This document shows, piece after piece, positions 22,058 to 24,687 of a stretch of 41,027 nucleotides of DNA. The notes under the pieces are model-generated. The model saw only the letters and a list, made by a program, of their open reading frames with translations, did no database searches and was not told the origin of the DNA. Source of the DNA: Deltaproteobacteria bacterium (GTDB lineage Bacteria > Desulfobacterota > Syntrophobacteria > Syntrophobacterales > Syntrophobacteraceae). The translations under genes and the position numbers were made by a program. The stretch spans positions 1 through 41,027 of the forward strand of contig JAKAJS010000114.1 in the NCBI GenBank assembly GCA_021813685.1. The letters run 5' to 3'. The stretch's first letter is position 1. Every line of letters starts with the position of its first letter.

Positions 22058-23449
22058 ATGCGTGAAAAACACAAGATCCTGATAGTCGATGACGAGGCAC
22101 ACTTTCGCTCCGCCTTACGCCGCTTTCTTGAAAAGACCCACCGGGTCATCGAGGCCGACACCGGAGCGAGCGGCCTGCAGCTTGCCCAGAGCGAAGAACC
22201 CGACCTGGTTTTGCTCGACATCGGACTGCCCGACGCAAGCGGCTTGGATTTACTGCCCCGATTCAAGGAAATACGCCCCTCCCCCGCCGTGGTGATGATC
22301 ACCGCCTTCGACCGGGTAAAAGACGTGGTGCTGGCTATAAAACAGGGGGCGTTCGACTATCTGGTAAAACCCGTCGACCTCGATGAGTTCGAAGTGACGA
22401 TCCAGAACGCTCTGAAATACGCGGGCCTTAAAAACGAGGTCACCCGGCTGCGCCAGGAAGTCGAAAGGCTCCAGGGGGTGGGCCGGATGATCGGCAGGGA
22501 CCAGACCTTTGTCGAAGCGCAGATGCTTGCCGTAAAGAGCGCACAGAGCCGTGACGCCGGAGTCTTGATCCAGGGCGAAACCGGTGCCGGAAAAGAACTC
22601 TTCGCCCGACTCATACACACCAAGAGCCCCCGGGCACAGTACCCTTTCGTCGCTCTTAACTGCGCTGCTTTTTCCACCGAAATCATCGAAAGCGAACTGT
22701 TCGGATACGAAAAAGGAGCGTTTACCGGCGCAAAACTCGAAGGAAAAGAGGGGCTGCTCGAAGTAGCCGACGGGGGCACCCTCTTTTTAGACGAAGTGGT
22801 TGATCTGCATCCCGAGATCCAGGCCAAGCTGCTGCGCGTGCTGGAAGAAAAGGAATTTTTCCCCATCGGGGGCACGCGCAAAAAAAAGGTGGACATCCGC
22901 ATCGTTTCGGCCTGCAACCGGGACCTGTGGCAGGTGGCCGAGGAGGGCGGTTTTCGAAAAGACCTCTTTTTCCGGCTGTCTACGATCCGAATCAACCTGC
23001 CCGCCCTGCGCGAGCGGCGAGACGACATCCTGCCCCTTGCCCGGGTGTTCATGGAGGAGTTTAACGATAAGTACGGGAAAAAATTCCGGGGCTTTGCCCC
23101 CAAGGCCGAACAGCTCCTCTTGAGCCGTTCGTGGCCCGGCAACGTGCGCGAACTGCGAAACAGCATCGAACGTGTCGTGCTCTTGGAAAACGACGACACG
23201 ATCCTGGGGCGGCATCTCAGCTTTCTCGACCAGGACCCCGGCGAAAAGAGCCCGGACCCGTCGGAAAAATTGAATATCGTGCTCCCCGATGGAGGACTGG
23301 GCCTCGAGGAGCTCGAAAAACAGGTAATCCTCCAGGCGCGCGAAAAATGCGGGGCCAATAAGGCCAAAATGGCCCGCTTCCTCAAGCTCCCCCGCCACGT
23401 GCTCCTCTATCGCCTCAAAAAATATGGAATCGAGCTGGACGGCAAATGA
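22058..23449 (+). CDS. NtrC-family sigma-54-dependent response regulator
   Basis: A 463-residue transcription activator. Receiver domain, residues 1-120: acidic pair D11/D12, phospho-acceptor D54, T82, K104. AAA+ domain, about 142-380: Walker A GETGAGKE (173-180), the sigma-54-contacting loop GAFTGA (220-225), Walker B TLFLDE (241-246) and the RSWPGNVREL sensor segment. Fis-type helix-turn-helix, about 418-460: NKAKMARFLKLPRHVLLYRLKKYGI. It is intact at every functional motif. GGGGG lies 4-5 bases before the ATG. Directly downstream are three related 18-bp sites and a -24/-12 promoter, which makes the next gene its probable target. No cognate histidine kinase is adjacent; the soluble kinase at 26.2-27.3 kb is of the HisKA_3 type, which normally pairs with NarL-like regulators. 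Confidence 0.94.
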   Translation: MREKHKILIVDDEAHFRSALRRFLEKTHRVIEADTGASGLQLAQSEEPDLVLLDIGLPDASGLDLLPRFKEIRPSPAVVMITAFDRVKDVVLAIKQGAFDYLVKPVDLDEFEVTIQNALKYAGLKNEVTRLRQEVERLQGVGRMIGRDQTFVEAQMLAVKSAQSRDAGVLIQGETGAGKELFARLIHTKSPRAQYPFVALNCAAFSTEIIESELFGYEKGAFTGAKLEGKEGLLEVADGGTLFLDEVVDLHPEIQAKLLRVLEEKEFFPIGGTRKKKVDIRIVSACNRDLWQVAEEGGFRKDLFFRLSTIRINLPALRERRDDILPLARVFMEEFNDKYGKKFRGFAPKAEQLLLSRSWPGNVRELRNSIERVVLLENDDTILGRHLSFLDQDPGEKSPDPSEKLNIVLPDGGLGLEELEKQVILQAREKCGANKAKMARFLKLPRHVLLYRLKKYGIELDGK

Positions 23450-23474
23450 CAAACAAAGGAACCCAACCCCGCGA

Positions 23475-23492
23475 GTGAACAAAATCCTCCAC
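23475..23492 (+). promoter_or_regulatory. Upstream activator site 1
   Basis: GTGAACAAAATCCTCCAC. It shares the GTGAACA half and the final CCAC/GCAC with sites 2 and 3; its centre is 30 bp from that of site 2. It lies about 200 bp before the sigma-54 promoter. Confidence 0.5.
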
Positions 23493-23504
23493 TTCTCGGG
23501 TGAC

Positions 23505-23522
23505 ATGAACAATATCCTCCAC
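23505..23522 (+). promoter_or_regulatory. Upstream activator site 2
   Basis: ATGAACAATATCCTCCAC, 16 of 18 bases identical to site 1 and in direct orientation, three helical turns away. Probably bound by the Fis-type HTH of the regulator encoded just upstream; that is inference. Confidence 0.5.
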
Positions 23523-23588
23523 ATCGCACATAACCCATGGTAACAAAACGCCTTTTTCTTTCCGTTCCACCCTTGCACCTCTGCCGCA

Positions 23589-23606
23589 GTGCACAATATT
23601 GTTCAC
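23589..23606 (-). promoter_or_regulatory. Upstream activator site 3 (near-perfect palindrome)
   Basis: On the minus strand GTGAACAATATTGTGCAC; both halves fit GTGnACAAT. It is the best palindrome of the three sites and the closest to the promoter, about 90 bp upstream of the -24/-12 elements, a typical activator distance. Confidence 0.55.
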
Positions 23607-23681
23607 GATGCTTCCTCTTCACGCACGACGCCCGGGCTGCAAACCGATGCGCTGCGAGGCTTTTGCCCTTCGCGGGAGCTG

Positions 23682-23697
23682 TGGCACACCGCTTGCA
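23682..23697 (+). promoter_or_regulatory. Sigma-54 (RpoN) -24/-12 promoter
   Basis: TGGCAC (23682-23687), 5 bases, TTGCA (23693-23697). This matches the sigma-54 consensus TGGCAC-N5-TTGCW exactly, with GG and GC 12 bases apart. Transcription would start near 23709, leaving a leader of about 15 bases that carries the GGAGG of the receiver gene. Confidence 0.85.
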
Positions 23698-23723
23698 CCA
23701 AGAGAAAGCCAACGGAGGCGACA

Positions 23724-24140
23724 GTGCCAGTTGAAAATCTTGTGCTTCTTGTTGAAGACGATGCCCCGTTTAGACGCTCTTTGGAAAATTACCTCAATAC
23801 GGCCGGATATCCTTTTCGAAGCTGCTCAACCGCTGCTCAAGCTCTTGCTCTCGCTCAAAGTGCTGCTCCTCGTGTGGTTATTCTTGAATATCATCTTCCC
23901 GATGCGAACGGATGCTCCCTAGTCAAGCAACTCAATCACGTTGACCCTGGAATCAATGCGATCGTTCTTTCTGAATTCGACTTTCAAGTTGTAGCTGAGA
24001 CTCTGGATCGGGTGAAGATCCAAACGTTCCTGCAGAAACCCTTTGACCTCGTTGACTTTGAACTCGCTCTGCGCTCCGCCTGTTTGGAATCCGGCATAAC
24101 GAGGAGACTCGACTCTTGTTGCTCTGACATTTCCTGGTGA
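23724..24140 (+). CDS. Stand-alone receiver-domain protein with Glu at the phospho-acceptor position
   Basis: A 138-residue CheY-like protein with no output domain. LVLLVEDDAPFRRSL holds the acidic pair D12/D13. At the end of strand 3 the sequence is VVILEYHLPDANG: the aligned Asp is replaced by Glu55, while the rest of the D-x-x-x-P-x-x-x-G pattern is kept. The Ser/Thr switch (S83 in IVLSEFD) and Lys105 (FLQKPFD) are also kept. A Glu here commonly mimics the phosphorylated form, so the protein may be constitutively active or signal without phosphorylation. The start GTG has GGAGG 5 bases upstream, immediately after a sigma-54 promoter. Codon use leans to CTT/GTT/GCT more than in its neighbours. 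Partner unknown. Confidence 0.85.
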   Translation: MPVENLVLLVEDDAPFRRSLENYLNTAGYPFRSCSTAAQALALAQSAAPRVVILEYHLPDANGCSLVKQLNHVDPGINAIVLSEFDFQVVAETLDRVKIQTFLQKPFDLVDFELALRSACLESGITRRLDSCCSDISW

Positions 24141-24320
24141 AAACGGATGCTCAAGGAGAAAGCTGAAGATTGACTGCTGTTCCTGTTCACGCTCGTAACA
24201 ATTTCGACATCCCTTCGCCGCTCCCTCTCAAGCTCCCGTGAGAATCGATCCCGATGAGGGGTCACATTCACGCTGAATCGTTCCTGTTCCAATCGAATCG
24301 TCGTGAGTCTCCACAGTTAA
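24141..24320 (+). other. Long 3' untranslated segment of the receiver transcript
   Basis: About 180 bases from the receiver stop to the terminator with no convincing gene. TTCCTGTTC occurs twice (near 24178 and 24281), and a GTGAACA half-site lies on the minus strand near 24184-24190. It could be a plain 3' UTR or yield a small RNA. Confidence 0.35.
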
Positions 24321-24360
24321 GAAGGCCATAAGGAAATCCCTTATGGCCTTCACTTTTTTT
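24321..24360 (+). terminator. Rho-independent terminator
   Basis: A perfect 13-bp stem, GAAGGCCATAAGG / CCTTATGGCCTTC, with a short loop, followed by AC and seven T. The clearest intrinsic terminator in the window; it closes the sigma-54-driven receiver transcript. Confidence 0.92.
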
Positions 24361-24513: not shown

Positions 24514-24687
24514 ATGGAACAAAAACTGAAATTGATCGAGAAGATGGAAGAAAAAGGAATGAGCGTTGCGCAGGTCGCCGAAGCGATTTCTTTCGATCCG
24601 ATGGTGCTTGGCCTCTACCTGATAAAGGACGCCTATCCGGTTCCCAAAAGGATACTCGATAAGCTGGAAGGCGCCCTGGCCAACTGA
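24514..24687 (+). CDS. Small HTH-like protein, 57 residues
   Basis: MEQKLKLIEKMEEKGMSVAQ begins the protein. A compact helical pattern (MSVAQVAEAISFDPMVLGLYL) looks like a short helix-turn-helix of the phage-repressor / MerR-like size, followed by PVPKRILDKLEGALAN. AGGAG lies 7 bases before the ATG, so the short start is well supported even though the frame is open further upstream through the REP-like repeat. Function unknown; a DNA-binding or chaperone-like role is only a guess from the fold pattern. It is 155 bases upstream of der on the same strand, with a heptad palindrome between. Confidence 0.6.
   Translation: MEQKLKLIEKMEEKGMSVAQVAEAISFDPMVLGLYLIKDAYPVPKRILDKLEGALAN

Follow-up and report, generated by a model that had tools for sequence, protein, structure and literature searches.

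A sigma-54 two-component circuit of Syntrophobacterales that may drive a six-base-periodic RNA and, in two families, a pseudo-receiver

What does a sigma-54-dependent activator control when its gene is followed by three predicted binding sites, a -24/-12 promoter and a gene for a lone receiver domain? The question is raised by positions 22,058–24,360 of contig JAKAJS010000114.1 (Syntrophobacteraceae, assembly GCA_021813685.1), part of a stretch of 41,027 nucleotides that was analysed as a whole and is called the window here. An earlier note on this DNA had described a self-contained circuit in which the activator makes a second signalling protein, giving a relay or feedback loop. We followed it up with sequence-based evidence throughout, using 59 genomes that include 26 of family f1 and 8 of family f2 (Syntrophobacterales families), 5 of f3 and 3 of f6; the window's genome is designated G000 and its genus contributes 11 loci. 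The reading that we prefer, and to which we give somewhat better than even chances, is that a sigma-54 two-component circuit drives a hexamer-patterned RNA, likely a protein sponge, together with a feedback pseudo-receiver in f1 and f2. Most likely the core output is a regulatory RNA, the pseudo-receiver being confined to these two families. Judged from the letters, the feature does not stop at the receiver gene but takes in a 3′ RNA region.

The receiver gene is followed on the plus strand by a noncoding region (24,141–24,320) and an intrinsic terminator (24,321–24,360; stem 24,321–24,351, then T's). Across loci, 171 to 397 nt separate the receiver stop from the terminator, the position of which was set by hand in G002. 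The 3′ regions align poorly, with a mean column identity of 37%, and share a degenerate six-base period. Their autocorrelation peaked at 6, 12 and 18 nt (z 15.0, 9.3 and 7.7), with no peak at 3 or 9, and a periodic hidden Markov model (HMM) gained 731 nats at period 6 and 742 at period 12, compared with 277 at period 3, 309 at 9 and 119 at 7. The profile at period 6 reads G-Y-(T/G)-(C/G)-A-W (GYKSAW). When the period-6 HMM was trained on 16 3′ regions from f1 genomes of other genera than the window's, including the main-locus rows of G014, G022 and G024, all 23 held-out sequences scored above z 6 against dinucleotide shuffles: 11 of 11 in the window's genus, 7 of 7 in f2 and 5 of 5 at the receiver-less loci described below. 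The window reached z 9.2, and the held-out noncoding regions ranged from 6 to 30. The pattern is strand-specific, the mean HMM gain on the reverse strand being negative in all three held-out groups. The two best 192-nt stretches of the window both lie in the transcript (28.4 and 18.9); the next, at 1.8, overlaps the transcript start, and the best elsewhere is 0.3. Similarly, the best hexamer window fell within the transcript in 33 of 34 stretches, the exception being G032, and 400 kb sampled from one relative (G024) held a single outstanding window (34.9 versus 13.5 for the next). A hidden open reading frame (ORF) in the 3′ region was considered and rejected, an excess of open length being found in none of 34 loci. 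A separate observation is a hexamer score of 14.5 on the minus strand at about 3,126 in the G016 stretch (L291) with the separately encoded histidine kinase gene and neither sites nor promoter.

Five further loci, in G024, G014, G022, G043 and G041, have the same sites and promoter with only a hexamer-patterned RNA of ~355–380 nt behind them and no detectable receiver. The sites lie 208, 178 and 85 bp from the promoter in both G024 and G014 and 209, 179 and 85 bp in G022; in the third family, f6, the distances are 200, 169 and 92 bp (G043) and 199, 168 and 91 bp (G041). The five represent three contexts: those of G014 and G022 precede the same acyltransferase-like gene, and those of G043 and G041 stand directly behind the same zinc-type ABC transporter genes. 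The G043 locus, the sole receiver-less one found on the activator's contig, lies 4 kb downstream; a malic-enzyme-like gene follows its RNA (L268). Searches of the receiver-less transcripts with 35 receiver queries gave E values of 0.02 or weaker in four of the five. Their period-6 autocorrelation reached z 7.3, and their interiors were weakly structured in five of five (z 1.35 to 3.29). One such locus appeared among 20 stretches around scored sites (L220, G014) and one among 14 weak matches to the tandem-site model introduced below (L272, G041); two stretches examined in G045 (f6) held none, and the second G024 locus had no DNA homologues in the other 58 genomes. Because these five loci have the RNA without a detectable receiver, the RNA appears more widespread than the receiver, and because they also keep the sites and promoter, the receiver does not look like the essential target that it had been taken for. 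Together with the held-out periodicity, they support the RNA as an output of the circuit.

The RNA is also distinguished by its structure. Compared with dinucleotide shuffles, the 3′ interior shows less structure in 33 of 34 loci. Among 30 loci compared by segment, positive values were found in 28 for the 3′ region and in 27 and 26 for two windows of the receiver coding sequence, compared with 12, 14 and 13 for three activator windows and 11 for the site region. A closing helix, P1, is predicted to pair the end of the receiver gene with bases just before the terminator, and in the window it joins GGAGACUCG (24,103–24,111, plus strand, inside the last receiver codons) to UGAGUCUCC (24,304–24,312, plus strand), with p 0.02 in the window's genome. 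P1 reached p < 0.05 against 2-mer block shuffles in 20 of 34 loci and varies in sequence, as in GGAGACUCG/UGAGUCUCC, CUCUCAGA/UCUGAGAG and GAGGGGACUCUC/GAGAGUCCUUUU. In 24 aligned sequences, at least one double change was seen in 10 of the 15 stem pairs of the terminator hairpin. No Rfam family was matched at gathering score in the window or seven loci, and relaxing the limit to E 10 gave two chance-level matches.

The gene at the start of the transcript has a GGAGG ribosome-binding site (23,714–23,718, plus strand) and a GTG start at 23,724, and encodes a single-domain pseudo-receiver (23,724–24,140, plus strand) with Glu55 in place of the phospho-acceptor Asp. Every one of the 34 aligned orthologues carries Glu here; among them the active-site Lys and Ser and Glu11 are invariant and Asp12 is mostly kept. 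In a small tree that set 12 pseudo-receivers beside 12 receivers of activators and 20 receivers drawn from 51 more distant loci, Glu occupied the position in all 12 pseudo-receivers and Asp in all 32 other receivers; the acidic pair of the pseudo-receivers comprised Glu11 in 12 of 12 and Asp12 in nine, with Ser in three. The pseudo-receivers formed their own clade (0.987), which grouped with the other receivers (0.894), and an origin by duplication of the receiver within the activator was unsupported. The third codon position was the most changed in 10 of 10 close-relative pairs and took more than half of the changes in nine, and the ORF therefore looks protein-coding and selected. The codons additionally carry the hexamer pattern beyond synonymous-codon permutation: the value is positive in all 34 (mean z 3.2) and exceeds 2 in 27, and activator control segments had no such excess (REC 15 of 31 positive, AAA+ 18 of 31). 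In f3 and f6, only general receiver-level matches to the receiver were found (E 1e-12 or weaker).

Upstream of this transcript, the three 18-bp sites described earlier are present in the window, with starts 30 and 84 bp apart. Site 1 (23,475–23,492, plus strand) has no mismatches and is centred ~198 bp upstream of the promoter TGG; site 2 (23,505–23,522, plus strand), its tandem partner 30 bp away, has one; and site 3 (23,589–23,606), a near-perfect palindrome centred 84 bp upstream of the TGG, fits best on the minus strand, where it has no mismatches to the first consensus and on the plus strand one. The improved consensus is itself an imperfect palindrome, TTGAACAATATTCTCCAA. The promoter is TGGCACACCGCTTGCA (TGGCAC-ACCGC-TTGCA; 23,682–23,697, plus strand). 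The survey of sites and promoter covered 33 loci and excluded G038 as almost identical to G026, G018a as located at a contig start and G048 as non-orthologous. Taken as the best match within 90 bp before the receiver, the promoter had at most one mismatch to TGGCAY-N5-TTGCW in all 33 and none in 23. Site 1 lies 203–210 bp upstream of the TGG in 19 of the 33. Median distances to the TGG were 208, 178 and 84.5 bp (G022 excluded), compared with 198, 168 and 84 bp in the window; at the main G022 locus the tandem pair is shifted to about 369 and 340 bp. Apart from G022, spacings differ between loci mostly by about 10 or 20 bp. Phasing at 10.5 bp gave R 0.55, 0.59 and 0.75 over 34 loci and, over 17 lineages grouped by hand from site distances (G011, G022 and G023 excluded), R 0.49, 0.56 and 0.69 (p 0.019, 0.003 and 0.0004); the best-fitting periods were 10.3, 9.9 and 11.2 bp.

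The specificity of the sites was assessed in the window's genome (5.06 Mb, 285 contigs), where 52 matches with at most two mismatches were found, compared with 18 for the reversed pattern; in this list only the present locus has matches at different positions less than 200 bp apart. A tandem-site model was built from 30 rows, namely 28 main loci including the window's and the second loci of G024 and G014, which thus match it by construction. With the site matrix, which was learned from these loci, the tandem pair scored 26.9 on average, and eight column-permuted matrices gave -13 to -5. The single match of the tandem-site model in the window's genome was this locus, itself a training row (E 1.8e-9). 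In the 59 genomes, matches at 0.003 or better were main loci, the second loci of G014, G024 and G022 and the locus of G043, those of G022 and G043 being recovered from outside the training rows (6.4e-7 and 3.3e-4). Five main loci were kept out of the model, of which G026 (0.001), G011 (0.003) and G023 (0.023) were recovered and G036 and G037 were missed. A repeat scan of 55 genomes, all within the same 59, carries no independent weight. The earlier note had named a motif common genome-wide, or sites or promoter lost in close relatives, as outcomes that would speak against the circuit; the tandem site instead occurs almost exclusively before this type of transcript, and sites and promoter are retained at all 33 loci examined. 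G018 has a second receiver-type copy (L082) that comes with a promoter and three sites of its own; the sequence examined around it shows no hydrogenase motif.

The activator (22,058–23,449, plus strand) is an NtrC-family sigma-54 response regulator with REC, AAA+ and Fis helix-turn-helix (HTH) domains, in which the REC Asp and the GAFTGA motif are intact. The activator, promoter, ribosome-binding site, receiver gene and terminator were all found where the earlier note had placed them. Among the matches listed to 25 families, it reached no named equivalog cut-off (AtoC, NtrC, ZraR and others), the best being AtoC with 392.7 bits against a cut-off of 714. Activator and receiver genes are both present in 26 of 26 f1 and 8 of 8 f2 genomes, which supports a sigma-54 circuit with its own activator; the activator is interrupted by contig ends in G018 and G023. 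Further carriers of the system include Desulforhabdus, Desulfoferrobacter suflitae and Desulfacinum. The two genes share a strand in 31 of the 34 genomes, where the gap between the matches is under 450 bp. The exceptions are G009, with 1.5 kb between the genes and an extra gene between activator and sites (L056), G010, with the genes on opposite strands (L057), and G018, with the genes on separate contigs. In both G009 and G010, where the activator is displaced or inverted, the sites remain with the promoter. Conserved autoregulation of the activator was rejected, upstream sites being scored only in G001, G003, G005, G007, G012 and G015, with none above threshold in G000. Four relatives within the window's genus (L048, L050, L052 and L054) have a lone site-like palindrome ~80 bp before the activator start, and in the window it is below threshold. 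In G048 (L084, family f5), a distant activator orthologue precedes a receiver-cyclase-like gene, with a promoter-like sequence of two mismatches between them, which represents a different pairing.

A histidine kinase with a GAF domain adjoins the activator in 8 of 8 f2 and 3 of 3 f6 genomes, the only families compared closely in which it does so. Near full-length matches to it occur elsewhere in 23 of 26 f1 genomes, on contig C169 in G000, and none was found in G002, G004 and G023. In the window's genome the likely kinase is thus encoded away from the activator, and for this reason the first description of the circuit as self-contained is not supported.

These elements can be arranged into a putative mechanism, for which kinase, activator, looping and sigma-54 start are suggested by family knowledge and conserved geometry. 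The GAF-domain histidine kinase, encoded elsewhere in this genome, would probably phosphorylate the NtrC-type activator, which would bind the two tandem sites and the third site; looping on one face of the helix would then switch on the single sigma-54 promoter. We infer both transcription and the kinase pairing. One transcript would give two products, the more widespread long RNA and, in f1 and f2, the encoded pseudo-receiver. The RNA is predicted to be weakly structured, with a binding unit every six bases, an end-to-end helix in many loci and a closing terminator. By analogy with CrcZ and CsrB, which act on other proteins, it would most likely titrate an RNA-binding protein. In f1 and f2 the first ~400 nt encode the Glu-pseudo-receiver, which, by analogy with FixT and Osp, would most likely provide feedback by binding the kinase or activator in an unphosphorylated state.

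The 3′ region could instead be incidental, the pseudo-receiver exerting FixT/Osp-like negative feedback on the kinase or activator as the only functional product and the receiver-less loci being decayed copies. The two precedents (known to us from partial texts), the Glu found in all 34 orthologues together with the retained site Lys and Ser, and selection at the protein level all fit such an account, as does the weak receiver-like stretch at one receiver-less locus, yet we regard it as unlikely: five loci without a detectable receiver keep sites, promoter and RNA signature, two of them in a family in which no receiver orthologue was found, and decay would erase the held-out periodicity of the noncoding regions. 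If the RNA is the output, it could pair with mRNAs in the manner of Qrr or GlmY rather than act as a protein sponge. Small RNAs are known outputs of other activators in this class, as far as the sources available to us show, and weak structure would leave the RNA accessible, but a fixed seed would not require a six-base period to be kept at so low a column identity, and Hfq was over cut-off in none of the 59 genomes, which makes pairing with mRNAs rather doubtful in our view. That the hexamer reflects a DNA-level, mutational or codon-use effect with no RNA function seems improbable. The receiver hexamer is in codon register, T content is raised in the receiver coding sequence and 3′ region alike, and the antisense strand is also weakly structured, but the pattern is strand-specific, extends through a noncoding region with no ORF excess, has its best window within the transcript in all stretches except that of G032, and the sole comparable window in 400 kb of G024 proved to be the second locus with sites, promoter and RNA. 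Finally, the receiver fold, the mostly kept acidic pair and the Lys would suit a relay in which the activator makes a second, phosphorylatable signalling protein, as the earlier note had supposed; since the phospho-acceptor position is Glu and never Asp in the 34 orthologues, such a phosphorelay is highly improbable.

Several observations weigh against the preferred reading of a sponge RNA with an encoded feedback protein. The second G024 locus surfaced through the hexamer score itself, the site matrix was learned from the same loci that it scores, kinship among the genomes means that the counts are not independent, and one of the sites is fitted weakly in G011, G023, G026, G036 and G037. The short hexamer pattern is not specific genome-wide, its counts being close to those of reversed-pattern controls in many genomes (37 versus 41 in the window's). 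The antisense of the 3′ region is likewise less structured in 25 of 30 loci, and low structure alone is therefore no proof of an RNA-level cause. P1 was individually non-significant in 14 of 34 main loci, its counterpart reached p < 0.05 in two of the five receiver-less loci and was non-significant in three, and RNAalifold on a MAFFT alignment of 24 sequences recovered the terminator only. The receiver-less locus of G022 contains a receiver-like stretch of ~104 amino acids with 22% identity (E 0.004; 440-nt subject, 35 queries) and may on this account be a decayed copy. As for known partner proteins, Hfq gave one weak below-cut-off match, in G037, with controls including Escherichia coli positive, and CsrA had no match in the carriers G000, G012, G014, G015 (a one-contig genome), G016, G018, G022 and G023 and was present in all the other carriers. 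A CrcZ-type sponge for Hfq thus finds no Hfq over cut-off in any genome, nor a CsrB-type sponge a CsrA in these eight carriers.

Among the bacterial regulatory RNAs studied in depth, most are linked to Hfq, ProQ or CsrA, and CrcZ and CsrB are sponges that titrate RNA-binding proteins, CrcZ working on Hfq/Crc through A-rich motifs. As far as the sources at hand describe it, the CbrA/CbrB–CrcZ/CrcY system of Pseudomonas resembles the present one in that a two-component sigma-54 activator drives an RNA in which protein-binding units recur and of which there are sometimes several copies; here, by contrast, Hfq is below cut-off and the unit is GYKSAW every six nucleotides. QseF–GlmY and LuxO–Qrr, on similarly partial texts, are likewise sigma-54 activators driving small RNAs. 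GlmY and Qrr are base-pairing or decoy small RNAs, and we know of no embedded protein in either. A closely similar layout was found in Desulfovibrio vulgaris, in which, according to the accessible text, the sigma-54 response regulators DVU0679 and DVU0653 have a noncoding RNA just downstream, the function of the DVU0679 RNA being stated as unknown (PMC3333781, PMC4641369). The likeness in the descriptions is that a two-component sigma-54 activator targets a noncoding RNA downstream of its own gene (PMC3333781, PMC4641369), and with respect to this, the kind of circuit is, on the accessible text, already known; the receiver-less loci, where a noncoding transcript follows the sites and a -24/-12 promoter, fit the same layout. 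The accessible text mentions no pseudo-receiver, however, and the DVU0679 orthologues that it names are in Desulfovibrio species, Desulfotomaculum acetoxidans and Symbiobacterium, not Syntrophobacter. For the pseudo-receiver, the available portions of the sources describe FixT (PMC7078487) and Osp (PMC9430884) as single-domain receiver-like proteins that are not seen phosphorylated, are induced by the pathway that they inhibit and feed back on the kinase. They differ in that FixT and Osp, on the same partial texts, are without the acidic pair and Osp keeps the Asp (PMC9430884), whereas here the acidic pair is mostly kept (Glu11 in all 12 and Asp12 in nine of the tree subset) and Asp is replaced by Glu. 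A published description of the activator/pseudo-receiver pair or of the hexamer RNA was not found in the literature searched, most subscription papers being outside its reach.

Downstream of the terminator, the window encodes a 57-aa Cro/C1 HTH-like protein (24,514–24,687, plus strand; Pfam matches below cut-off), a candidate partner that synteny suggests may belong to the system. It lies downstream of the RNA on the same strand in 30 of 35 loci, and it was not found in G004 (of which little sequence was examined), G008, G010, G037 and the second G018 copy, or in the examined stretches of the five receiver-less loci. Of 35 loci, 18 have a [NiFe] hydrogenase large-subunit motif no more than 2.8 kb downstream on the same strand; the 11 loci of the window's genus show no such motif within the sequence examined. 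In most other f1 and f2 genera the locus stands upstream of a [NiFe] hydrogenase operon, which makes hydrogen metabolism the first place to look for targets. The hydrogenase as a direct target was rejected: among 14 loci with a small-subunit motif, which in f2 was found only in G037, no promoter with at most one mismatch and no tandem sites were found between receiver and hydrogenase, where one weak single site (G015) and one promoter-like match with two mismatches each in G019 and G021 were seen. Two members of the window's genus, G002 (L049) and G005 (L052), encode a different [NiFe] hydrogenase-type large subunit on the opposite strand, also downstream.

Tentatively, the transcripts may represent a new class of RNA: ~170–400 nt long and structure-free, with one protein-binding unit per six bases and an end-to-end helix, driven by a dedicated activator in bacteria with no detectable Hfq, titrating an RNA-binding protein that is perhaps the 57-aa HTH-like protein, and with a pseudo-receiver written into it in two families by codons that keep the pattern. 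If this is true, a single molecule would carry both an effector RNA and a feedback protein, and the receiver gene would be a coding sequence whose synonymous positions follow an RNA-level pattern. The six-base rule has no match among Rfam families and predicts a protein whose footprint spans six bases; for finding such a new RNA-binding protein, the hexamer RNA would serve as direct bait. For syntrophic and sulfate-reducing bacteria, these findings point to a control circuit beside [NiFe] hydrogenase genes in most genera, and to a conserved, apparently inducible RNA, in bacteria without detected Hfq, whose rule is a six-base period, little structure and closed ends.

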